From a virus, in IMG/VR virus record IMGVR_UViG_3300037230_000083, positions 1 to 47,685 of that record: a stretch of DNA of 47,685 bases; one strand, written 5' to 3'. Numbering within the stretch: the stretch's first letter is position 1; every line of letters starts with the position of its first letter. Positions 10,060 to 40,166 of this stretch are shown one piece after another. The notes beneath the pieces are model-generated. The model saw only the letters and a program-made list of their open reading frames with translations, was not told where the DNA came from and did no database searches. Made by a program: the position numbers and the translations under genes.

Positions 10060-12345
10060 CCTGATTGCAGGCTCAAACTGAGCCCGCAGCCGCCCGTTGG
10101 TGTAGGTACCCAGCAACCCCAGACCCCGCAAGAACCCGCCAATCAGCCGCCGCCCGCCGCCCCGCCTGAGCAAAGCACCTTCCAGCTCAAATGGCCTGCA
10201 GCCGAGTTAGATCGGATTGCGGACCGCGTTCAATCCGATTACCGCTCCGCTCTCGCTGATCACGAACGCCGCATCAACAAATGGCGCGAGTACTATCGCC
10301 GCTGGCGCGCACTGGCGCAGGTTCCCGCGCAAGGCGATGAGGAAGCGTCCAATCTCCCTGTTCCCTACATTCGCTGGAACATTTTCACGAAATGGTCCAA
10401 AGAAATGGATGGCCTTTTCGGTGATGACGCCGAAATAGTGGCCGTCCCGGTTGGTCCCTCCGACGCCAAGCGAGACAAGAAAATCTCGAAGTACATGACC
10501 TGGAGAATTTTCAACTCCATGAAGTTGCTCAACAAGTTCTGTGTGTTCGTGTTGCGCAAGCTCCTCTTCGGCCGCTCTATCGCATACGCCCCGTGGAAAC
10601 GCGACACCTACACGGTGGGTGGGCACGAGATTGTCGACTACGAAGGCGCGGACTTCCAGCCTCAATGGCCCGACGACATCATTGTCCCGGTTGAAGAAGT
10701 CGAGACGATCCACGATTTCAGCTTCGTGATACGCAAGTACCGCGTGACCCCAGACCAGCTCCTGAAAGGTGAGGACGAAGGGCGCTACCAGAACATCACC
10801 AAGAACTGGCTGCAGATTCTGAACATGGCGCAGCACGGCATCCAGCGCGAAGCCGAAGGCGATGAGATCAAGCGGGAAGCCGACGCCGCTGAAGGGCTGC
10901 AATACGAGCGGCCAATCTCGGCCGGCGAATCGATTCTCGTTCTCGAATGGTACGGCAAGTGGCGCCCGCTCAAAGGCAAAAACAAAGACGCGAGCGAGTG
11001 GGACTTCAAAAAGCGCGACATGCGCCAGAAGGACTTTGTCATCCGCTACCTCTGGGACCTCCACCTGATTGTAGGCGTCCAGGACCTCGAAGACCTCTAC
11101 CCGACGATGAAGCGGCGCCGCCCGTTCGTTGAGTCGTCAATGATCAAGGACGGTTCGTATTGGTCCGCCGGCATGGCGGAGATGCTCATCGACCTCGAAG
11201 ACGAGCTATCCGTCAACCACAACCAGGCGACCGAAGCCGGCCAATTGGCGATGAATCCGCCGCTGGCTTACCGGCCGGCATCCGGATTCAACCCTGAAAC
11301 GTTCCGCGTGAAGCCCGGTACCGCGATCCCTCTCGACAACCCAGAGAAGGACATCAAGCAACTCACGATCGGCGCCAACATGGAGATGGCATCCTGGAAA
11401 GAGCAAGCCGTCATCGCATACGGCGAGAAGCTCACCGGCATGAGCGACCTCCAAATGGGTCGCCAGAGTGACCGGCCGAACGCCCCGCGGACCGCACAGC
11501 AAACCGTCTCCCTTCTCGAAGAGGGGAATGTCCGCATCAGCCTCGACAGCAAGGTCTTGCGCGAGGACATGGCAGGAGTGCTCCTGCACATCTGGCAACT
11601 GGAATACGAGTTCAGTTCGCCCGAGACGTTCTTCCGCGTGACCGAGGAGGACGCCGATGGAGCGTTCCCGGTAACGCAGGGCGGCTCCGTGCTCTCTCAC
11701 AAGGACCGCGACGGCCGCTACGACTTCCGGTTGCAGTTTGCGAATTCGCTCTATTCAAAGGAAGCGGCGAAGGAAAACACCCTCGCGCGTTACCAGCTCG
11801 ACTTACAGAACCCGCTCATCACCAGCGACCCGGTAGCGCTCTGGGAGGTAACCAACGCTGTCCACGAAGCCCTCGGGGATGAAGACTTCGCCTCGATCGT
11901 GCCCCGGCCGCCGGCTCCGGATATGTCCGTCGATCCGAAAACGGAATTCGTCAACTTGCTCCACGGCGAAGAGATCCACGTCAACCCGGTGGATAACGAC
12001 CTACTCCACATGATCCGGCACATGAAGGACCTGAAGAAAGCCGAAGCCGATCCCACGCATGCGGATCCGGATGCGCAGAAGGCGCTAGCGGTCCATTACA
12101 AAGACCACATGTTGCAGCTTCAACAAAAGAAGATTCAGCAGGCGATTGTCGAGATGGGTATCAAGGCGGCTCAACAGCTCGCCGCGCAAGGCCAGGCGCA
12201 CGGCCAGGCGCTCGGCGGCCCGCAACCGCTCAACATGGCGGCCGGCCTCTTTGGTGGGCCGGTAACGCAACCGCCGGGAAATCCGGCCGCAAGTGACCCC
12301 CAGCTTTACAGCGGTCACCCCGAGGACCTACACGGAAACTCATGA
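10037..12345 (+). CDS. Portal protein (apparent -1 frameshift near 10078)
   Basis: Forms the dodecameric DNA channel at the capsid vertex. The conserved portal N-terminus (ADHERRINKWREYYRRWRAL, then VPYIRWNIFTKWSKEMDGLF) is encoded from 10258 on, in a frame open from 10060 but without any ATG, GTG or TTG before 10405. An ATG at 10037 in another frame reads MNNVQSHSLIAGSN and hits TGA at 10079; a -1 shift there joins it to LSPQPPVGVGTQQPQ and the portal. So the gene has lost a base, contains a read error, or uses frameshifting. Core features: long helical N-terminus, AYRPASGFNPETFRVKPGT loop, Gln/Ala-rich C-terminus. About 760 residues in total, large for the class; closest in style to P22-like podovirus portals. 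Confidence 0.85.
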
Positions 12346-29524: not shown

Positions 29525-30379
29525 ATGATCACCCTGGTAGCTCCTTTCCCCTCATACCTTTGGCACATTGCGTGGAGTTGGCTCGAACCGTTGCGCGCAA
29601 TCGTGTGCGATGACTTCGCTCCGAAGGACTTAGAGGCATTTGTCGAATCATTCCAGAGAGGCGGTAGCCAGGTCGTTGGAGTTAAGGAAGATGGCCGCCT
29701 GGTTGGCGCCGTGACGTTCGAGCCGGTGAACCCGGTAACGTGCAACGTCCACATCCTGTTTGCTCCGAAGTTTCGGGGCCGGGAGAAGAAGCGGGCCGCG
29801 GCAGAGATGGCGTGTCAGGCAGCGTTCAACGCTGGGGCGCGGAAGTTGATGGCGCTGATCCCGGCTGATAACTGGCCGGCGATCGCGATGGCGGTACGGA
29901 GCGGGGCGCGGATCGAGGGGCGGCTGATGAGTCACTCGGTGCGAGATGGAAAACCGCTCGATGCAGTGTGTTTGGGAATTACGAAAGAGGAGTTTTCGCA
30001 TGGGACTGAATTTAGGCGCATCTACGGGCGGAACATCGAGCAACAGCCAGACGGCGGGAACCGGAACCAACACGCCGACATTCTCGGCGGGGCAGGGGAC
30101 CGTCCAATCGATGCTGGGGTCACTGTTCTCCCAGCTCCTGCCGGCAGCGGGATCGGGGGGGATCTCGGCGCCGGTGCAGGCCGTAGAAACCGGAAACGCA
30201 AATCAGATCAATCAGACCAGCGCGGCCACGGGAACAGCGATGAACCGCTTCCTCGCAAGCCGCGGGTTCGGAGCAAGCGGCCAGACGGGACAAGCGGGAC
30301 TCCAGACCGAACTCGGCAGGCAAGCAGCTCTGGGAGCAAACGCGTCAAACGCGGGCGCCCAACAGCTCACCCAAAATGA
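29525..30379 (+). CDS. GNAT-like acetyltransferase with overlapping C-terminal extension
   Basis: Residues 1-155 have the GNAT pattern: DLEAFVESFQRGGSQVVGVK, EDGRLVGAVTFEPVNPVTCN, VHILFAPKFRGREKKRAAAE (the FxPxFRGR-x-G/A pyrophosphate loop), then ARKLMALIPADNWPAIAMA. Phage acetyltransferases of this kind lie next to internal virion genes. A normal protein would end near residue 160, but the frame stays open to 30379 and runs 380 bases into 30000-30500 in another frame, with Gly/Arg-rich, shadow-like sequence. Either the extension is translated or a stop has been lost. Confidence 0.65.
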   Translation: MITLVAPFPSYLWHIAWSWLEPLRAIVCDDFAPKDLEAFVESFQRGGSQVVGVKEDGRLVGAVTFEPVNPVTCNVHILFAPKFRGREKKRAAAEMACQAAFNAGARKLMALIPADNWPAIAMAVRSGARIEGRLMSHSVRDGKPLDAVCLGITKEEFSHGTEFRRIYGRNIEQQPDGGNRNQHADILGGAGDRPIDAGVTVLPAPAGSGIGGDLGAGAGRRNRKRKSDQSDQRGHGNSDEPLPRKPRVRSKRPDGTSGTPDRTRQASSSGSKRVKRGRPTAHPK

Positions 30380-30500
30380 CACGGCTCTTTCGGATGCTCT
30401 AAACTTCGCGTTCAACACCCCTGGATCGAGTAGCAGTGCCGCAACCGCTAGCAGCGGCAGCTCCACGGCGTACAAAGTCGGCGCCGGAGTGTCGGTGTAA
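30000..30500 (+). CDS. Internal virion-like Gly/Ser/Ala-rich protein, 166 aa
   Basis: GAGGAG lies seven bases before the ATG, a strong ribosome site. Low-complexity start (GLNLGASTGGTSSNSQTAGT) then helical segment VQSMLGSLFSQLLPAAGSGG and QINQTSAATGTAMNRFLASR. Small Gly/Ala/Gln-rich helical proteins of this kind precede the ejection proteins in podoviruses. Overlaps the end of the acetyltransferase frame and abuts the next gene by one base. Confidence 0.65.
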   Translation: MGLNLGASTGGTSSNSQTAGTGTNTPTFSAGQGTVQSMLGSLFSQLLPAAGSGGISAPVQAVETGNANQINQTSAATGTAMNRFLASRGFGASGQTGQAGLQTELGRQAALGANASNAGAQQLTQNDTALSDALNFAFNTPGSSSSAATASSGSSTAYKVGAGVSV

Positions 30501-31954
30501 TGGCCCAATTACTCAACGCTCCAGAACTAAATTTGAGTGGCTCCGCCGCCCCTGATCCGGCCGGGGAAGCAGCTTCGCACGCCTATGCGGCCGGGCTCCA
30601 GTTCGCGACGGCGTTGCGCGACCAGGCGCTCAAAGGGCAACAGCAGCAGCAACTCAAGCAGCACCAGGACCAACAGGCCCAACAGGCAAGCGATATTGCC
30701 TATGCCAAGGAGCAACAGGGATACAACCAGATCGGCGCCACCCTCGCTCCCCAGTACAACGCGGCCGTTCCACAGACCGGCAGTGTCGCCCCGACGCCTG
30801 CAGGCTTCGGCGGCGGCGAAGCTCCCCCACAATTGAGCAACCCCGGCAACTCGCTGAAACGCGACCCATCCGGATTGCAGCTCGATCCCAGCCAACAGGC
30901 CGACGACCCGAACCATATCCAGATCGATTCTCGAGGAATTGCGCGCCACGTTCCATCGCTCGAAGAACGCGAGAAGGCGAAGGTGAAGCCACCTGTTCCG
31001 CTCGATGACACCAACAGCTTTGTTCCTTCAGGAGATCTCGCGGACCGCCTCACGAAAGCAGGGGTGAAACCCGGTACACGGTTGCCCTTAGCCGATGCAC
31101 TGAAGCAACAGGCACCAGGCGCGGAACACTACATTACGGGGACCGACAAAGACGGCAACGCGGCACAGTTCACGGTCGGTCCGGATCATAAGGCCGTGCC
31201 TATCGAGTTTTCGGACGGGTACAGCGGAGCGAAACCGGAGTCCGACAAGCCGGCGAAGTACACCTACAACCACTTCACGGATGACTCGGGAAAAGTCAGT
31301 GTGACCCGGATTGGAGGAGACGAGGAAGCTCCTCAAATCTGGAAGGGCGGAAAGTGGACGCCCATGGGAGACACCGAAACTGTAGGGGCAAAGCACAAGG
31401 ATCCGGACGTAGCAAGCGCACTGGTGAACGAACACATCCAGGAGCGCAAGGATGCGAAGGAACAAGCAGGCCGGGACTCCGCACAGAAGGTGCTCGACGG
31501 GTATCAGGTGAAGGAGCAGTCTCAACATGCCCTGCGATCCGCCTATGGGGAGGCTTTGTCCACCCAACCGGATGCCGACGGAAAGAACAAAGGTCAAACC
31601 TGGGTAATCGATCCGGTGACTCATAAGGAGGAGGAGCTCACTCCAGCGCGGCGCGCCGCCTATCAGAACGAGTACCAGAGGGCCACAAAGCTGGCGGGAG
31701 CCTACCATGACGCCCAGCAGAAAATCATAGTCCGGCAAGGCGGTGATCCGGACCCGGCACAGCAACAGCAGACCGCACCTGCAGGCCAGCAGACCACTGC
31801 ACCGCCGGCAGCTCCGCCGGCTGCGGCAGCGACGAAACCAGGCAGTAAGGGCAAGCTCACTGACAAGACCATCGTGCGGAAATACCTCGATGCGAATCAC
31901 GGAGACAGTAAAAAGGCACAGGCCGCGGCGCAGGCCGATGGCTGGGTGTTCTAG
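30500..31954 (+). CDS. Internal virion/ejection protein, 484 aa
   Basis: Helical N-terminus (PAGEAASHAYAAGLQFATAL) with a Gln-rich coiled run near residues 50-75, Pro-rich linkers, a central domain with YTYNHFTDDSGKVSVTRIGG, and a long helical segment. It ends KKAQAAAQADGWVF, a closing motif seen in other phage internal virion proteins. Position before the giant protein matches the podovirus ejection-protein order. Not an enzyme as far as visible. Confidence 0.6.
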   Translation: MAQLLNAPELNLSGSAAPDPAGEAASHAYAAGLQFATALRDQALKGQQQQQLKQHQDQQAQQASDIAYAKEQQGYNQIGATLAPQYNAAVPQTGSVAPTPAGFGGGEAPPQLSNPGNSLKRDPSGLQLDPSQQADDPNHIQIDSRGIARHVPSLEEREKAKVKPPVPLDDTNSFVPSGDLADRLTKAGVKPGTRLPLADALKQQAPGAEHYITGTDKDGNAAQFTVGPDHKAVPIEFSDGYSGAKPESDKPAKYTYNHFTDDSGKVSVTRIGGDEEAPQIWKGGKWTPMGDTETVGAKHKDPDVASALVNEHIQERKDAKEQAGRDSAQKVLDGYQVKEQSQHALRSAYGEALSTQPDADGKNKGQTWVIDPVTHKEEELTPARRAAYQNEYQRATKLAGAYHDAQQKIIVRQGGDPDPAQQQQTAPAGQQTTAPPAAPPAAAATKPGSKGKLTDKTIVRKYLDANHGDSKKAQAAAQADGWVF

Positions 31955-31956
31955 AC

Positions 31957-34900
31957 GTGCCCAACATCTTCGATGAGGTAGCGGGCGAGCAACAGCAACA
32001 GGCGCAGCCGCAGAGCCAGAACATTTTCGACCAGGTGGCCGCGGAGAAGCCGCAGGCGCAAGCGCCAGCAGCTCCGGCGGCCGCACCCTCGTGGCAGGAC
32101 CGGATGACGCAGGAGGTTCAACAGAACGCTCCGCCCGTTGAACAGCATCGTGACGCGAGCGGCAACCTCTACATTGGCGGCCGACGAGCGGACGCCTACC
32201 AGCAGACCCCGCAAGAGAGCCAGCGCGCAATCGAAAACATCCGCGGGCTGGAACAGGACCATCCAGGCTTGGCGTCTGGCGGCATGCCTGACGTCGAGGC
32301 CTACGGTAACGCACTCGCCATGGGAGCGGGCGAAGTTCTACCCGGCGCCGCGGCAGCAGTCAAAAACCCGTTGGTCAAGAAAGCCCTTCTTTTGGGGAGC
32401 ACCGCGGTCAATGCCTACTTCACGTGGCAGATGGGGCAAGGGGCAGGGCAGACCGCGAAAGAAGGCCTGGACGCTTACAACCAGGGCGACTACGCCAAGA
32501 TGGCCGCAAAGATTGGTCACGCGGGCGTGCTGGGACTCCTCACGGTCCTCGGAATTCATGGACTCGCCAAAACCGCGGTGATTGCCGAACCGTTATCGCA
32601 GTACAACACCCGCCAGGCTTCGCAACCGTTATCCGAGCAACCCGGGGGAGTGGCAGCCGAACCCGAGGTTCAGCAAGGCACCGCAGGGCCGGCAAAGCCC
32701 GCAACTGCGACCCCTGCCACCCCTGCCAGCGCTCCGGCACCGCCGGAAGCCGCGGCGCCGATCGACCCGCTGAAGCGCCAGAAGGGCGAGAAGTTCAGCG
32801 CATGGCAGGCTCGCGTGAACGCTGCAGGTCCTGCAGCTCCGCCGGCACCGGCTCCGGTACCGCCGGCCGCTCCCGTGCCGCTCAGCTCAACACTTCCGAC
32901 TCCGGAGCAAGCCGACCAGGCTACTACCGCGAACGCGCAGACAATCGTCAACGGTCCGCAACCGCCGGCAGCACCGGCGTCCATTCAACAGGAGACACCC
33001 AATGCAACTACCGTGGTCCAGCCAGGGCAAGCCCCCGGCAGCCAAACGCAAATCGATCAAGAGTCCAGCCCCGCAGTCGGGCCTACTCAAAGCCTTGAAC
33101 CAGGCGCAGCCGAACCCGCAGCAACCGGCGAGATTGCCAGCACGCCCGAGCCTGCCCAACCGCCCGCCGATGAAGTAGCGCCCGCAGAAAAACCAACGCC
33201 CGAGAAAAAGCCGGCACCGAAGGTCATCGCGGCAGATTCGGGTAAGGTAGCTGACAAAGCAAAAACCGAGGCTAAAGAGCCACAGTCTGGGCCGCAGGAA
33301 AAGAAAACTGAAACCGGGCCGGTTTACGGCAAGCCCGTCAATGTTGCCGTGCCAGGCGAAGAAACAAACTACCCGGCACGCTACGCCATCCGCGAACTCT
33401 CGGACCTTCAGCCATCCCACAATGGGATCACCTTCGAGCGGAATCCGCGCTACGAATACCAGAACGACCGCGACTACAAGAACAACCCGGAAATCAGTTC
33501 TCTCGTTGCCGATCGGTCAGGCCCAAAGTTCGATCCCAACTACCCGGCGACGGAGTCTCCCACCGCGGAAAATGGCGGACCGGTGATCGATCCCCGCGGT
33601 AACGTCCTCGGCGGCAACAGCCGTTCGATGACCCTCGCCCGGGTGTACAAATCGAATCCCGAAGGAGTCAAAGCTTACCAGGCCGCTCTGCGCGATCGCG
33701 CTGCCGTGTATGGCCTGAAACCGGAGGACCTCGACCGTTTCAAACAGCCCGTCATGGTTCGGGAGCTTTCTGAGCAACCGAACGAAGCCGCGGCGCAGCG
33801 GGCGATAACCGACTTCAATAAGAAAAGCGCTGGTGCGCTCGCAACCGCGGAGCGCGCAGTGGCGGACGGCCGTCTGATGAGCCGGCAGACCATCGGTCTG
33901 ATCTCCGCAAAGCTCGAGAACGTAGGCGAGGATTCGACGCTTGCACAGGCGATGCAGGGCGAGAACGGCGCGCAGATCGTCGACAGCCTGATCAAAGATG
34001 GCGTCGTCTCGCAGCAGGAGAGAGGCGCACTCATTGATGAGCGCGACTTGTTGACTGGCGAGGCCAAGGACCGTATCGCCAAGATGCTGGTCGGCCGGAT
34101 GTTCGAATCGCCGGCACAATATCAGGCGACACCTCCGGAGTTGCGCAACAAGCTCGAGCGCGTGGCGCCACAGGTTCTCCGCCTCGAGGGACGTCACGGC
34201 TGGAACATTACGCCGGCAGTGCAAGAGGCGCTTGGGCTTTTGGCTGACGTGCGATCGCATGGCGGTAAGAGCCTCGATGATTTTCTGAAGCAACCGGACC
34301 TCCAAGGGGAAGAGCGGGACTTTTCTCCGGAAGCGGTAGGAATTGCGAGAACGCTGGGCCGCGGGCCTGTGAAGGTTGCGCGCGCGTTCCGGCAGTTCGC
34401 CAACGATGAAGCACTTTCGCGTCAAGGTGCGGCACGGACGTTCTTTGAAGCACCGAGCCGGGAAGAGGCTTTCCATGCGGCGTTTAGCGAGGGAGCGAAG
34501 GGAGCGCTTGCCCGAAAATCCCGGTTGCAGAAGATGCGGCCGGCTGAACTGGCACGGATCAGTTACCGGCCGACGAAGAGTGGCGCGCCGGGAACGCTGT
34601 ACGGAAACAGTGAAGCGACGAATATGCTCTCGCACCTTGCCGAGGGCGCTTCGAGACTCCTTAGAGATCCTGAAACCGGCAACGTCCTTGTGGACGAAGA
34701 CGGCGAAATCAAGCGGGACCTTGCGGCCTTCAAAGATTTTACCGGTATGTCGATGCATCGCCTTACCGTGGAGAGGCTTCTCGCGCAGGCCCGGTGGGAG
34801 TTATACAACGGCGGGTGGCTACCATGGCGGAGAGACGAATTACAACGTTTCGTTTTCGCGGCCAAGGACGCGTTGGAGTCAAAAGACCGGTCCTTCATCT

Positions 34901-37900
34901 ACGCTGAAGCACAGCCGTTCCGCGACTTGCGGCGCACAATCCTCGAAGAACGGTTTCACGCCGAACAACGACGGAACACGGGGATCAAAGATCACGTTGA
35001 CGTCCCCGCATTGATGGAACATCCCGCGGCGGAAACCGCCCGCGCAGCCCTCGTCGAAACTGGATATCCCGACGATCCCGACATAATTGCGGCTGAAATT
35101 GGAGCGAAAATTGCAGCCGGTTCATGGGACGATCTCGATTTAGCGGAAGACGAGGCCAAGAGCCTCTTCTACCGGTACGCGGAGCTAATCGTAGCCCGTC
35201 ATGGCCCAGGAGTACTATTCAAATTCCGCTCGATCTCCCCTATACTCAAAGAGGTTTTTTATGAGCCTGGCAAACAGACACCGCTCGGTGAAGGACGATC
35301 TAGTCCTCGCCGATCCCCGACCGGGCATGACTCCAGAGGAGCGGAAGAAACGCCGCCAGGAGGTAGAGGAGCGCTGGGGGGGGCGTACGGGCAAGGGAGG
35401 GAAGCGCCCTCAGCCAGAAATGCTGGAGAAGAACCAGGCGCGACTGATCAGAGCGGCCACGAAGGGCAAAACGGAGTTCGACCGCGTGTGGAACGAGATC
35501 TTCCACAACAAGTTTCCGTCGCCCGGACTGGACAAGTTCCGTCAGAATCCGGGCCTGCGCTAGCCAGCCGGCGAAACCCCGATGACGATAGTAGAGGAGT
35601 CTATAGCCATCTTGGAGACCGGCCAGAACGTGGAGGACCTCCCGGGCAGGATGCTGGCAATAACCGGATTCGATCCGGATTATCCGAAACGCCTGCTGGA
35701 CCTGAATCGGAAGGTCTACGAGAGGTGGGTGCAGAGGCAGATCGCAGAGGCGACGACAGCACCTACTTCGGCTCCGGACTCGGAGCGTTAGAACCCTTTT
35801 TCCGCGAGGCCAAGAAAGAAGGTGACCGCCTGCGCCTCGAACGCAGTGCAGCCCTCGCGGCGGCCAAGGTAGCGCGCTCGACACCCTCCGAGCAGCACGC
35901 CGGCGAGAAGGCGCGCGCCTGGTACACGGCCGAACGCGATCTGTGGGCGCTGCGCGTGAACCAGGCGATCGATATTCTGGACCGGACCAAAGCCAAAAAG
36001 GTTCAGGAGCGGGAAGCGGTTGGGATCATGCGCGAGTTCAGGCACAGTCCTCGGGAGCTGCAGCAGTTCGTCGATGGCACCCATCCGTTCCTGCAGGACG
36101 AAGTGGACGGCGGATCCGCCGAAGGTGTGAAGAACCTAAAAGTCCTGCTGCCCCGCATGCAAGAGGCTTTAGCCATGATGGCGCGGCCACTTACTGAGTC
36201 GGAGAACGTGGCAGATCGGCTCTACACTAACATCGCCGACAAGACTTTAAAGGAAGGGCAGAAGGGCGGCTGGATGGGATCGCGATGGCTGCCGGACCAG
36301 TATGTGCCTCACATCCTGAATGCAAAAGGTGAGGGAGGAGTTGCGAGGGCTCCATCGAAAAAGGGCCGGGCGATGGGGAACATCGGGAAATACTTCGGGT
36401 TCGCCGAACGGAGGGACGACAGGTACCCGACAATCGTTCACGCTGTCGCCGATGGACTGATCCCAAAAACGCTGGACCCCTCGGCAGCCTTCATAATTCA
36501 CGGCGAAAACTTTGCGAGAGCCCGCGCAACGAGGTTGTTCGAGAAGTATCTGGCGGATTGGGGTCTGGGGCATTGGGGTACGCAGAAGAGCGCGCCGGAG
36601 GGATGGAAGCCCCTTGGATCGCATGCAGACGAATTCCGGAGGCTGGTACCTTACCTGAGGGAAAGCGCGCCGTCCGCCATCGAGCCAGGCAAAACCTACT
36701 CGCCACGCGAACTTTACACTAACCTGATTGGCGACCAGCTGCAAATTGTGCCCGACGTCGCCGAGCAACGGTTATACGTTCCTGAGTTCATTCAGTCGGC
36801 GCTCAGCTCGATCACAGACCCGGATTACACGCCAACACATCCCAAATTCTCCTATATCAGAAGAGCGCAGGCGGGGCTTAAGCGGGCCATCCTCGGCTTT
36901 TCGGGTTTCCACCTAGTCACTGAAAATTTCATGGCGGCGACGGATGTCGGTCCGGGTGGAATGTGGAGGGCGTTCGCCACTTCGAGGGAAAGCGCCGGGT
37001 TTCTCTCGGACGAGCGCGACCTGGTCGCCTCCGGAGGGACCACGGCGATCGAAGGGAAGGTGATGGACGCATACGGGAGTCTCAAGCCCGGCACAATTCC
37101 GACGCGGGCTGAAGTTGTACGGGCCTATATTCCAGGGACGAATCGAGCCCTGCGGGTAGCAGATTACATCACTCGTCTCACGTTCGAGAACTTCCAACGG
37201 CGGTTCAAGGTGACAAGCTTCGCACTGCATCGCGATGCATGGATAAATGACAACCCGAACGCCTCCTCTGACGAGCTGAACGAAGCAAAGAAGGGAATCG
37301 CGAGCTTCGTGAATGGCGTTTACGGAGGCCTCCACTGGGAGAACATGGGGACAGCTCACGCGTCGCTCGAATTGGGCCGGATGATCTTCCTTGCCCCCGA
37401 CTGGAGCGGCAGTAACATCGCCCTTGCAAAGTACGCACTAGCCGACGCGCGTCTATCGGCACACGAAATTCCGCTGCGGAAGAAACTGACCGGCGCCTAC
37501 TCGAAGGAATCGACGCAGGCACGTCTCTCTCGCGCCTTTTTCACCAAGCAGATGCTGGGCGGATTGCTGGCGACGATCGGCATGAGTATCGTGTTCACCG
37601 GCTGGCAGCCCAGTAAGTGGCGGCCGTTTCAGGTATACCTCGGCAAGGACAAGGACGGGAAAGACGTCTATCAAAACATCTTCTTCCGTGGACTCGCCGG
37701 CGACTCAGTCAGCCTGGGTACCAAGATGATCAAGCACGGGGAAGAAGGCTACGACGAGGGCGGCGCGGGCGGCTGGCTTGTCGGGCTGGGCATTGGAGCG
37801 GGCGTTTTCGTTGGATCGAAAGCGGCGCCCCTCGCAAAGTTTGCCAAGCACTTTATCTCCGGCCTTAACGACTTCGGGGGGAAGGAAACGCCCGCCGGAC

Positions 37901-38121
37901 TCGCCTCAGACCTACTACCAATTCCAATCCCCCTGCGGCAGCTATACGACAACCGGGCCGGAGACAATGGACAGGACATCGAGTGGTCAGAGCGGATGCT
38001 CTCCCTCTTCGGCCAGCCGGCTCAACACGTTGCACCGAGCGGTCATCACCCCACGCACCACAAAACCACGCATAAGAAGGCCGCGCACACGGGTTGGGAG
38101 AAGATCCTGCTCGGGAAATAA
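31957..38121 (+). CDS. Giant ejection/polyvalent protein, 2054 aa
   Basis: Likely injected into the host with the DNA. Domains in order: two NIFD(E/Q)VA motifs at residues 2-30; hydrophobic helices near 139-157 and 189-211; long Pro/Ala linker (220-440); a DdrB/ParB-like unit around 470-630 (GGPVIDPRGNVLGGNSRSMT, LARVYKSNPEG); helical domains to about 1090; a Gly/Arg/Pro/Ser-rich linker (1100-1275); a C-terminal helical region (ESAGFLSDERDLVASGG) shared by phage large polyvalent proteins; and hydrophobic stretches near 1864-1883 and 1938-1961. GTG start. The linker coincides with two overprinted genes (35261-35563, 35582-35791). No peptidoglycan-hydrolase motif seen. Confidence 0.75.
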   Translation: MPNIFDEVAGEQQQQAQPQSQNIFDQVAAEKPQAQAPAAPAAAPSWQDRMTQEVQQNAPPVEQHRDASGNLYIGGRRADAYQQTPQESQRAIENIRGLEQDHPGLASGGMPDVEAYGNALAMGAGEVLPGAAAAVKNPLVKKALLLGSTAVNAYFTWQMGQGAGQTAKEGLDAYNQGDYAKMAAKIGHAGVLGLLTVLGIHGLAKTAVIAEPLSQYNTRQASQPLSEQPGGVAAEPEVQQGTAGPAKPATATPATPASAPAPPEAAAPIDPLKRQKGEKFSAWQARVNAAGPAAPPAPAPVPPAAPVPLSSTLPTPEQADQATTANAQTIVNGPQPPAAPASIQQETPNATTVVQPGQAPGSQTQIDQESSPAVGPTQSLEPGAAEPAATGEIASTPEPAQPPADEVAPAEKPTPEKKPAPKVIAADSGKVADKAKTEAKEPQSGPQEKKTETGPVYGKPVNVAVPGEETNYPARYAIRELSDLQPSHNGITFERNPRYEYQNDRDYKNNPEISSLVADRSGPKFDPNYPATESPTAENGGPVIDPRGNVLGGNSRSMTLARVYKSNPEGVKAYQAALRDRAAVYGLKPEDLDRFKQPVMVRELSEQPNEAAAQRAITDFNKKSAGALATAERAVADGRLMSRQTIGLISAKLENVGEDSTLAQAMQGENGAQIVDSLIKDGVVSQQERGALIDERDLLTGEAKDRIAKMLVGRMFESPAQYQATPPELRNKLERVAPQVLRLEGRHGWNITPAVQEALGLLADVRSHGGKSLDDFLKQPDLQGEERDFSPEAVGIARTLGRGPVKVARAFRQFANDEALSRQGAARTFFEAPSREEAFHAAFSEGAKGALARKSRLQKMRPAELARISYRPTKSGAPGTLYGNSEATNMLSHLAEGASRLLRDPETGNVLVDEDGEIKRDLAAFKDFTGMSMHRLTVERLLAQARWELYNGGWLPWRRDELQRFVFAAKDALESKDRSFIYAEAQPFRDLRRTILEERFHAEQRRNTGIKDHVDVPALMEHPAAETARAALVETGYPDDPDIIAAEIGAKIAAGSWDDLDLAEDEAKSLFYRYAELIVARHGPGVLFKFRSISPILKEVFYEPGKQTPLGEGRSSPRRSPTGHDSRGAEETPPGGRGALGGAYGQGREAPSARNAGEEPGATDQSGHEGQNGVRPRVERDLPQQVSVARTGQVPSESGPALASRRNPDDDSRGVYSHLGDRPERGGPPGQDAGNNRIRSGLSETPAGPESEGLREVGAEADRRGDDSTYFGSGLGALEPFFREAKKEGDRLRLERSAALAAAKVARSTPSEQHAGEKARAWYTAERDLWALRVNQAIDILDRTKAKKVQEREAVGIMREFRHSPRELQQFVDGTHPFLQDEVDGGSAEGVKNLKVLLPRMQEALAMMARPLTESENVADRLYTNIADKTLKEGQKGGWMGSRWLPDQYVPHILNAKGEGGVARAPSKKGRAMGNIGKYFGFAERRDDRYPTIVHAVADGLIPKTLDPSAAFIIHGENFARARATRLFEKYLADWGLGHWGTQKSAPEGWKPLGSHADEFRRLVPYLRESAPSAIEPGKTYSPRELYTNLIGDQLQIVPDVAEQRLYVPEFIQSALSSITDPDYTPTHPKFSYIRRAQAGLKRAILGFSGFHLVTENFMAATDVGPGGMWRAFATSRESAGFLSDERDLVASGGTTAIEGKVMDAYGSLKPGTIPTRAEVVRAYIPGTNRALRVADYITRLTFENFQRRFKVTSFALHRDAWINDNPNASSDELNEAKKGIASFVNGVYGGLHWENMGTAHASLELGRMIFLAPDWSGSNIALAKYALADARLSAHEIPLRKKLTGAYSKESTQARLSRAFFTKQMLGGLLATIGMSIVFTGWQPSKWRPFQVYLGKDKDGKDVYQNIFFRGLAGDSVSLGTKMIKHGEEGYDEGGAGGWLVGLGIGAGVFVGSKAAPLAKFAKHFISGLNDFGGKETPAGLASDLLPIPIPLRQLYDNRAGDNGQDIEWSERMLSLFGQPAQHVAPSGHHPTHHKTTHKKAAHTGWEKILLGK
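35261..35563 (+). CDS. Overprinted small protein inside giant gene, 100 aa
   Basis: Read one frame ahead of the giant protein gene. AGAGG stands six bases before the ATG. The protein is strongly charged and helical (SLANRHRSVKDDLVLADPRP, GMTPEERKKRRQEVEERWGG, RLIRAATKGKTEFDRVWNEI) and looks more natural than the Gly/Arg/Pro-rich sequence encoded here in the giant frame. No family match. With the next entry it may be an inserted two-gene cassette that the giant frame reads through. Confidence 0.5.
   Translation: MSLANRHRSVKDDLVLADPRPGMTPEERKKRRQEVEERWGGRTGKGGKRPQPEMLEKNQARLIRAATKGKTEFDRVWNEIFHNKFPSPGLDKFRQNPGLR
35582..35791 (+). CDS. Overprinted small protein inside giant gene, 69 aa
   Basis: Same frame as 35261-35563, starting 18 bases after its stop. 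Sequence such as TIVEESIAILETGQNVEDLP and GFDPDYPKRLLDLNRKVYER is acidic, helical and well balanced, unlike the low-complexity giant-frame product here. Ends at 35791, about where the giant protein regains a normal composition (residue 1278 onward). Ribosome site is weak (GCGAAACCCCG). Confidence 0.45.
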   Translation: MTIVEESIAILETGQNVEDLPGRMLAITGFDPDYPKRLLDLNRKVYERWVQRQIAEATTAPTSAPDSER

Positions 38122-38221
38122 ACGCTGAAAGCACTTCGCGGCCAGTAAAGTCGAATAGCGCACCAGGCAGGGGGCGGCGCATGTTGCCGAGAGGAGATCT
38201 CCGGCAGGGTTTGTATCCCTC

Positions 38222-38902: not shown

Positions 38903-39157
38903 ATGAATCGGCTCACTTCTGGACAGCGCGATGCTTCGACGGCCCGCGACTTCATCACAGACCTTGCAGGACGCCTCCGTAACCGCGTGCAGTTGACCAC
39001 TGATGGTCTCAAGCTTTATCTGAACGCCGTTGAAGATGCCTTCGGAGGCAACATCGATTATGCGATGCTCGTCAAGATCTACGGCATCGATCCGCGACTC
39101 CTGGATACAGGGCTTGAAACCGAACCAGGAGCCGCCAGCAGAAAGAGGTCCGAATGA
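38903..39157 (+). pseudogene. IS1-type transposase relic with internal deletion, 84 aa
   Basis: MNRLTS resembles the first residues of IS1-type transposases; then the sequence jumps directly to the middle part RDASTARDFITDLAGRLRNR and VQLTTDGLKLYLNAVEDAFG, IDYAMLVKIYG, which is a core block of that family containing its second catalytic Asp (TTDG). The N-terminal DNA-binding and first Asp regions and the C-terminal third (normally about 230 residues in all) are missing and the tail is novel (GLETEPGAASRKRSE). An intact frame, a strong promoter and a following terminator suggest the relic may be expressed, perhaps as a regulator. Confidence 0.65.
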
Positions 39158-39181
39158 GAAACCGACGCCCCTAGTTATAAG

Positions 39182-39231
39182 GGCGAGTGGGCGGGGAAAC
39201 CCGCCCACAACACTCTCGCCTTTTCATTTTT
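39182..39231. terminator. Terminator hairpin
   Basis: A stem GTGGGCGGG (39187-39195) pairs with CCCGCCCAC (39200-39208) around a GAAA loop; an outer GGCGAG pairs with CTCGCC, followed by TTTTCATTTTT. It ends the transcript of the preceding gene; the U-rich tract is on the right, so it works best for rightward transcription, but it may also help separate the leftward genes that converge on it. Confidence 0.75.
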
Positions 39232-39266
39232 ACCACAGAATTCACGAAAGGAAAAGCCATCGAAAG

Positions 39267-39581
39267 TTATTTGTCCCAGCGCGAGCGCGCGGCCTTCAAC
39301 GCAATTTCGCGGCGGCGTTCCGGTGTCATGGACGCCGCCCGATTCTTGCCTCCGATGCGACCGCCTTTTCTGCCGAGCTCGGCCATGACGCGCGAAATCT
39401 CGTCGCCCGTCGGCGGGCGATCCGAGTCGTCCTGCTGAGTCGAACGCCGGACCAAATCTTGAGCGACCTGGTTGAAGTCCATCCTCTTGGGCTTCGACCC
39501 ACTCACTGCTTTTTTCTTTGCGGCGGTTCCTGGTTTGTTAGGTCTTATCGGCAGCACTGGCATACTTCTGGATTTCGACAT
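39267..39581 (-). CDS. Basic protein with KGG/ARW-type motif, 104 aa
   Basis: Lys/Arg/Ser-rich N-terminal half; C-terminal half has ELGRKGGRIGGKNRAASMTP and ERRREIALKAARSRW, the TPERR...A..A...RW motif found in many small bacterial and phage proteins. Relatives here are 275-457 and 39993-40166. It begins at TAAATG with the stop of the previous leftward gene, the same junction used by the genes in the element at 41930-43626. Possibly DNA- or RNA-associated. Confidence 0.65.
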   Translation of the reverse strand: MSKSRSMPVLPIRPNKPGTAAKKKAVSGSKPKRMDFNQVAQDLVRRSTQQDDSDRPPTGDEISRVMAELGRKGGRIGGKNRAASMTPERRREIALKAARSRWDK

Positions 39582-39923
39582 TTAGCGATCTCCACCACGC
39601 ACCGTCGCAACCTTGAGAAGTCTAAGTACAAGAGCGTCCCATTGGCGGACGAACTCGCCGCGACCGTATACGTCTTCATAGTGTCCAGTGGTCACGCCAG
39701 CAGCTCGTGTCTTTCTACGACCCAGCTTGGGCAGATATTGAGACTGGGGCAATTCGTTGATCAACAGGCGCTCGCCGGTAAACGCTGCCGCTGCCTCTGC
39801 CTTCTCTATCCACGCTTCCAGAGCGACCAGTTCAGCCTTGATAGGATCGACAAACAGGCGCTCGGAGCCACCAGCGAACACGAAGTTTACGCCGGATTCG
39901 AATTTGTTGATGTTGGTATCCAT
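39582..39923 (-). CDS. Hypothetical protein behind element-type promoter, 113 aa
   Basis: Starts with MDTNINKFESG, while the first gene of the IS1595-type element starts with METNTATLEAN behind an almost identical promoter. The body (ELVALEAWIEKAEAAAAFTG, then GRGEFVRQWDALVLRLLKVA) is helical. No recognised family. Its start codon lies at the expected transcription start, so the mRNA is probably leaderless. Confidence 0.6.
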   Translation of the reverse strand: MDTNINKFESGVNFVFAGGSERLFVDPIKAELVALEAWIEKAEAAAAFTGERLLINELPQSQYLPKLGRRKTRAAGVTTGHYEDVYGRGEFVRQWDALVLRLLKVATVRGGDR

Positions 39924-39967
39924 ATCTCTATAGTAGATGACTACACGTCAGTCTGTCAAGAGAAAAA
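39924..39967 (-). promoter_or_regulatory. Leftward promoter sharing the element's operator
   Basis: On the minus strand: TTGACA (39959-39954), 18-bp spacer containing TGTAGTCAT, then TACTAT (39935-39930) and seven bases later the ATG. The inverse half-site ATGACTACA lies just upstream in 39968-39990. Nearly identical to the promoter at 41953-41995 (few substitutions and one extra base in the spacer). Confidence 0.75.
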
Positions 39968-39990
39968 ATGTAGTCATGTATATAATTCCC
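39968..39990 (-). repeat. Solitary copy of IS1595-type terminal repeat
   Basis: All 23 bases equal the terminal inverted repeat of the element at 41930-43626. Outside it, CTTCATTT (39991-39998) resembles the element's target duplication CTTTGATT. No second end was found to the left, so this is a solo end or relic. It starts two bases beyond the stop codon of the 57-residue gene 39993-40166. Confidence 0.85.
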
Positions 39991-39992
39991 CT

Positions 39993-40166
39993 TCATTTAA
40001 CCGTCGCTTTCTTCTTTGCCGCGGCTTTCTTCTTCGGTCCCTTTCCCCATCGGGCTAACGCCCCGCGCTTTCCGTTCTCCTTTCTCTGCTTGGCGGTAAG
40101 TGAGCCGAATCCCTTCGTCGGCACTTTGGCGATGCCGCCCATTCTCCCTGCATCTTTTGTGTCCAT
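39993..40166 (-). CDS. Small KGG/ARW-type basic protein, 57 aa
   Basis: Residues 8-45 read RMGGIAKVPTKGFGSLTAKQ and RKENGKRGALARWGK, the classic small-protein pattern GFGSLTxEQRxENGxRGGxARWGK; the end is a run of KKKAAAKKKA. It is probably a nucleic-acid-associated protein. The ATG at 40166 is preceded by a short divergent region. Small but strongly patterned, so the call is good. Confidence 0.75.
   Translation of the reverse strand: MDTKDAGRMGGIAKVPTKGFGSLTAKQRKENGKRGALARWGKGPKKKAAAKKKATVK

Follow-up and report, generated by a model that had tools for sequence, protein, structure and literature searches.

Organization of the giant gene and its nested reading frames

The window, as we call the whole 47,685-nucleotide stretch of viral DNA analyzed here (IMG/VR record IMGVR_UViG_3300037230_000083), contains a giant gene that lies on the same strand as the large terminase, head-tail adaptor and internal virion protein families. 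Its single polypeptide combines several disparate domains, a ddrB-like ParB domain, a central domain with the motif EExxHxxQ and a C-terminal domain (Table 1), and it is a polyvalent-type phage protein that is probably injected into bacteria. In the central domain, which is common to the giants of the window and of loci L002, L004, L011, L020, L021, L024 and L057, the EExxHxxQ motif is invariant across the alignment and the HEXXH of the MPTase domain is absent. A structure model of this domain is of low confidence (pLDDT 61) and gave no fold match, and no sequence relative was found in the PDB at E<0.1. Searches among phages returned neither a near-match to the DNA of 30001–38200 nor a tblastn match to the C-terminal domain.

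The N-terminus of the giant carries the tandem motif NIFDEVA/NIFDQVA (31957–32060). Most of the 20 giant N-termini that we compared have a repeated short motif of their own, which is phage-specific. Such tandem repeats (NIFDEVA/NIFDQVA, LTPDSFMA, LPxGF) open most giants and are perhaps a packaging signal.

Table 1 Features of the giant gene and of the nested open reading frames in the window and its relatives
Feature	Position or loci	Strand	Description
Giant ORF	31957..38121	+	2054 aa, single open frame; polyvalent-type protein
ddrB-like ParB domain of giant	33358..33768	+	Residues 468–604; Pfam PF18763, E=1.7e-14
EExxHxxQ-motif domain of giant	34774..35260 (approximate bounds)	+	Shared with L002, L004, L011, L020, L021, L024 and L057
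Shine-Dalgarno-like AGAGGT	35250..35255	+	5 nt before ORF1 ATG
Giant-frame linker across nested ORFs	35257..35736	+	Open, Gly/Arg/Pro/Ser-rich, without normal coding signal
Nested ORF1	35261..35563	+	+1 frame of giant, 100 aa, charged, helical
Nested ORF2	35582..35791	+	+1 frame of giant, 69 aa
Giant-frame ADRRGDD	35737..35757	+	Identical in L002, codon differences synonymous only
C-terminal domain of giant	35764..38118	+	Most widely shared module of giant family
Family X	L004, L021, L024		After EExxHxxQ domain
Family V	L002, L057		After EExxHxxQ domain
Family Y	L008, L010, L015, L026, L027		Before ParB
Family Z1	L003, L009, L015, L016; weaker L002, L057
Family Z2	L009, L015, L016; weaker L037

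At the joint between the EExxHxxQ and C-terminal domains, two smaller open reading frames, ORF1 and ORF2, lie one frame ahead of the giant frame. Both are present exactly where the original prediction had placed them, as is the ribosome site that it reported for the first. ORF2 starts 18 nt past the ORF1 stop with no clear ribosome site before its start, and is perhaps translationally coupled to ORF1. A single-sequence AlphaFold2 model of ORF1 has a mean pLDDT of 66, with block means of 77–91 over residues 51–90, and gave no fold match. No homologues of ORF1 or ORF2 were found in viral contigs, Pfam, PHROGs or the loci that we fetched, and neither is detected by the profiles of the nested families X, V, Y, Z1 and Z2 described below.

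Coding signal at the joint

Reading-frame preference was scored with a codon model trained on the phage's other genes and on the flanks of the giant, in 90-base windows and also in 20-codon steps. From about 35250 to about 35760 the +1 frame is preferred in every 90-base window, and the giant frame is preferred on either side. The GC content by giant codon position is 0.70/0.49/0.67 and 0.62/0.46/0.71 in the two flanks and 0.76/0.63/0.45 in the block between them. The earlier observation that the giant frame resembles a shadow frame here and has a normal composition on both sides is borne out by its residues: over the 159 residues encoded by 35287–35763, G/P/R/S account for 52% and I/L/V/F/M/W/Y for 10%, versus 28% and 27–30%, respectively, in the flanks. 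The giant frame is normal again from ADRRGDD onward, where direct reading against L002 shows that 5 of 7 codons differ, all 5 synonymously in the giant frame. A clean frame switch is also seen, independently, in this relative.

Such a pattern could arise if the giant were the sole coded product and the +1 ORFs were by chance the shadow of a disordered linker, rich in Gly/Arg/Pro/Ser, in a genome of high GC content. The portion of PMC2542354 drawn on here ties long phase-1 overlaps to GC content for compositional reasons, and the low-complexity linkers of two relatives (L017 and L019) do give a signal in both frames. As a composition null, the linker protein of the giant was kept and its codons were redrawn 2000 times from the giant's own usage. 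The frame log-ratio is −19.6 (sd 7.1) under this null and +39.6 as observed (z = 8.4); because none of the 2000 draws yields a +1 signal as strong as the observed one, the Gly/Arg/Pro/Ser-rich linker alone is not the explanation. The same null is rejected in 18 of 18 segments from 18 loci (z 3.9–12.5), several of which were chosen for a high score and others through homology. A chance shadow is further opposed by the linker itself, which is without a normal coding signal, and by the nested families with conserved ribosome sites that exist in relatives. We regard this explanation as very unlikely and already largely refuted.

The control set for the +1 score consisted of 21 conserved genes cleaned of shadow ORFs. 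Scores of at least 10 occur in 11 of these and of at least 15 in 8, all of them the GNAT gene with an overlap of its own; none of the other control genes among the 21 attains a score of 10 in +1.

A similar run-on is seen near the giant in the window, where the GNAT acetyltransferase gene (29525–30379) continues over an ORF at 29946–30500 in the same relative frame, the overlapping part being its basic C-terminal tail. Homologous GNAT genes in the relatives run on in the same way, and eight of them have a +1 coding signal of at least 15. Farther along, a 342-aa ORF at 39030–40055 has a strong +1 coding signal over 138 codons from 39171 and is probably a shadow of other genes.

Nested frames at the joints of mosaic giants

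Two scans with alignments of the C-terminal domain returned 44 and 57 loci, partly shared. One close relative, L002, which had come from an earlier scan, is 80% identical to the window giant in the ParB region and 41% in the C-terminal domain, and its linker contains a different nested ORF in the same relative frame as in the window. The giants of the relatives are mosaics in which ddrB-ParB, zeta toxin, His phosphatase, methyltransferase and FtsK gamma appear in varying combinations, and many of them have +1-frame ORFs where modules meet. Among giants with a GC of at least 0.55, 14 of 24 have a +1 segment scoring at least 15. Of these 14, L017 and L019 were rejected as nested-gene giants, as their +1 scores exceed 15 but they are of low complexity with signal in both frames; L012, whose score above 15 comes from a short segment, was left out of the nested-gene count. 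The near-duplicate contigs L020/L028 and L021/L022 have 0 differing positions in the giant.

The nested ORFs follow particular modules. Among the 14 giants scanned with Pfam (the window, L002, L004, L005, L007, L010, L011, L012, L015, L016, L020, L021, L024 and L027), a +1 ORF lies just past the zeta-toxin domain in all four zeta giants (L005, L007, L010 and L011). Of the 8 giants aligned for the EExxHxxQ domain, 7 have a +1 ORF just past that domain, the exception being L011. The joint of the window is represented in relatives with a different nested ORF (L002) or a different upstream module (L003, L006).

Five families of nested ORFs are found again across viral contigs (Table 1), two of which, Z1 and Z2, form tandem ORFs ahead of the phosphatase domain in L015 and L016. 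On visual inspection X and V could have been one family, but V is not found with a profile built from X only, and we therefore treat them as separate. Profiles of the five families were run against all six frames of the loci retrieved up to that point. At E<1e-4 there are 20 non-duplicate matches (X 3, V 2, Y 5, Z1 6, Z2 4), and all 20 fall within a giant, in its +1 frame. A weaker match outside giants (E=0.0012), on the minus strand of L016, is an Acb2/Tad1-like gene. Scans of viral contigs for standalone copies of X, Z2 and Y gave the same contigs only, and tblastn with one member each of these three families found no match among phages. The eight nested ORFs that were scanned have no Pfam match, no PHROG match at E≤0.1 and no match to a known antitoxin family, including the two that follow a zeta domain (L005, L010).

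Ribosome sites are conserved at the starts of Z1, Z2, X and Y in most members. Z1 has AAGGAG 7 nt before its ATG (L015, L016), Z2 has GGAGGT 5 nt before its ATG (L015, L016, L009), X has AAGGAG or AGGAGG 7–10 nt before a GTG (L004, L021, L024) and Y has AGGAG 6–9 nt before its start (L026, L015, L008). In L007, L010 and L011 the nested ORFs show no clear ribosome site at their likely start. These starts bear on whether the nested frame is reached through programmed +1 frameshifting, in which ribosomes would slip out of the giant frame and yield a shorter giant ending in nested sequence. In line with slippage, the ORF1 frame has no stop between 35195 and its ATG; however, a stop separates ORF2 from ORF1, so that ORF2 needs its own start, and ribosome sites accompany the starts that are conserved in Z1, Z2, X and, for the most part, Y. 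We judge frameshifting to be the least probable of the explanations weighed here.

Stop avoidance and conservation in the two frames

If the small genes are real, the giant frame could still be an accident. For 14 nested ORFs at 11 loci, we held the nested proteins fixed, redrew their synonymous codons and counted the stops that appear in the giant frame. At these loci, which were found via the C-terminal domain and whose nested ORFs were recognised through lying in an open giant, 0 stops are observed versus 30.7 expected (product P 1.6e-15). For the window alone, 6.6 stops are expected, 4.30 of them in ORF1 (P about 0.007) and 2.34 in ORF2 (P about 0.08), with 0 observed. T-ending codons occur in 0 of 300 cases before stop-making codons versus 68 of 758 elsewhere.

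These counts argue against a split arrangement in which separate N- and C-terminal genes flank the small genes, the open frame between them is accidental and the C-terminal domain starts internally, for instance at GTG 35725. That codon has AAGG 10 nt upstream, and in family V the residues of the giant-frame linker are unconstrained, both of which suit a split gene. Against it, in addition to the missing stops, the ORF of the C-terminal domain is unsplit at the window-type joint in the relatives' loci examined, and in the seven giants checked no internal start recurs consistently close to the module that follows. A split gene is quite improbable in our view.

Sequence comparison between relatives shows that the nested protein is conserved better than the giant frame in Z1, Z2 and V. 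For Z1 in L015 and L016, identity is 86% in the nested frame versus 62% in the giant frame, the synonymous/nonsynonymous counts are 12/8 and 3/21, respectively, and substitutions at nested codon positions 1, 2 and 3 number 5, 6 and 17. For V in L002 and L057, the nested frame is 48% identical and the giant frame 30%, the latter being the level given by the nested frame alone (p 0.485; the redraw tests for conservation assume saturated synonymous sites and therefore understate the p-values of related pairs). V is thus the reverse of the case that had been named as speaking against the original prediction, a giant frame conserved at the residue level with the other frame broken, which was not encountered in the relatives. 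In X, both frames are conserved about equally (43–52% versus 43–51%), as they are in several Y pairs. Both frames look constrained, and in families Z1, Z2 and V of the relatives the nested protein shows signs of purifying selection.

A model for dual coding and its origin

We consider it highly probable that the joint is dual coding, with the giant read throughout its frame (31957–38121) and two small proteins made from the +1 frame at its flexible joint. Codon usage, the ribosome site, stop avoidance and the analogy with relatives point to ORF1 and ORF2 as putative genes. The DNA of the flexible joint between the EExxHxxQ and C-terminal domains would thereby also encode two small +1 proteins with independent starts inside the mRNA: ORF1 would use the ribosome site in front of it, and ORF2 probably coupling. 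In related phages this layout recurs where other modules meet, with small genes of other families.

The original prediction offered an inserted cassette, a read-through fusion or true overprinting; the last is best supported and the second is its most likely origin, while a simple cassette is not demonstrated. A mobile cassette that entered the giant gene without breaking its frame would be in keeping with the variation of both upstream modules and nested ORFs at the same joint among relatives. However, no empty site was found, as no relative joins the EExxHxxQ domain directly to the C-terminal domain without a nested ORF, and no insertion signature was noticed in the sequences. Moreover, nested ORFs come after particular upstream modules (EExxHxxQ or zeta), so that in a cassette model module and nested ORF would have to move as a unit. 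Insertion of this kind is unlikely.

As for read-through fusion, codon usage is typical in the nested frame and shadow-like in the giant frame, which suggests that the linker came later than the nested genes. The run-on of the nearby GNAT gene is a similar case. We infer that the small genes would be the older readings, and that neighbouring genes would have been fused when stop loss and read-through of the small gene between them turned it into a linker. That no standalone copies of the nested genes were found in our searches speaks against this origin, or at least does not favour it.

Because the nested ORFs follow specific modules (zeta, EExxHxxQ), we tentatively propose that each small protein is a partner of the module next to it, as chaperone, inhibitor or antidote, and acts in the producing cell. 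It is possible, if still speculative, that injected giants generally grow via stop loss and read-through, with the small genes surviving nested, their shadow frames becoming linkers and their products serving as partners or antidotes of the effectors that are not injected. Such a route, by which phage effectors with several domains would gain both domains and linkers, can be tested, and it draws attention to small phage genes of a kind that would be skipped by gene callers that forbid long overlaps. Should the nested proteins restrain the effector modules beside them, they would provide inhibitors of a new kind, and the nesting itself would account for the safe carriage of toxic modules.

Relation to known systems

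Overprinted and nested phage genes are known, as in lambda Rz/Rz1 and phiX174 E in D. Like these, the small genes described here are complete, independently started and read in a different frame from the larger gene around them. Unlike these, they come from several families that are unrelated to one another, sit where modules of a single giant family join and are always in the +1 frame, and it is the larger frame that has the shadow-like composition.

Polyvalent proteins are described in PMC5512222 (Iyer et al. 2017) as multidomain phage proteins whose modules are pieced together from solo versions. The giant resembles that description in its ddrB-like ParB domain and its adjacent late genes, and its relatives do so in having zeta-like kinase and methyltransferase modules. 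The central domain, with EExxH, differs from the HEXXH described there for the MPTase domain, which is common but not obligatory in such proteins. In the main text of that paper 'overlap' and 'small gene' occur 0 times, and we found no mention of nested out-of-frame genes there. Long same-strand overlaps in bacteria prefer phase 1, in correlation with GC content, according to the portion of PMC2542354 drawn on here, and the nested ORFs are likewise same-strand and phase 1. The overlaps in that portion arise from start or stop changes, while the small genes of the giants lie entirely within the larger frame, which runs on into another domain. Among titles and abstract openings of the open-licence PMC papers retrieved on these and related subjects, we found no report of nested genes in polyvalent proteins. 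Polyvalent proteins, nested phage genes and the phase-1 compositional bias are thus known, and recurrent nesting at the joints of one giant family was not found in the literature searched.

Two further observations concern the relatives. Just downstream of the giant of L016 lies a small gene on the minus strand (10217–10504) that matches Pfam Acb2_Tad1_hairpin (E=1.6e-6), a family of anti-defence sponges, and this gene and family Y have the short motif WTPEQ..E.G in common. A gene for the C-terminal domain is also found in L047, a contig of the Bryobacterales MAG bog_224 (Acidobacteriota); the domain is present in 2 of 396 genomes of that phylum, and the contig hints at the hosts of this phage family.
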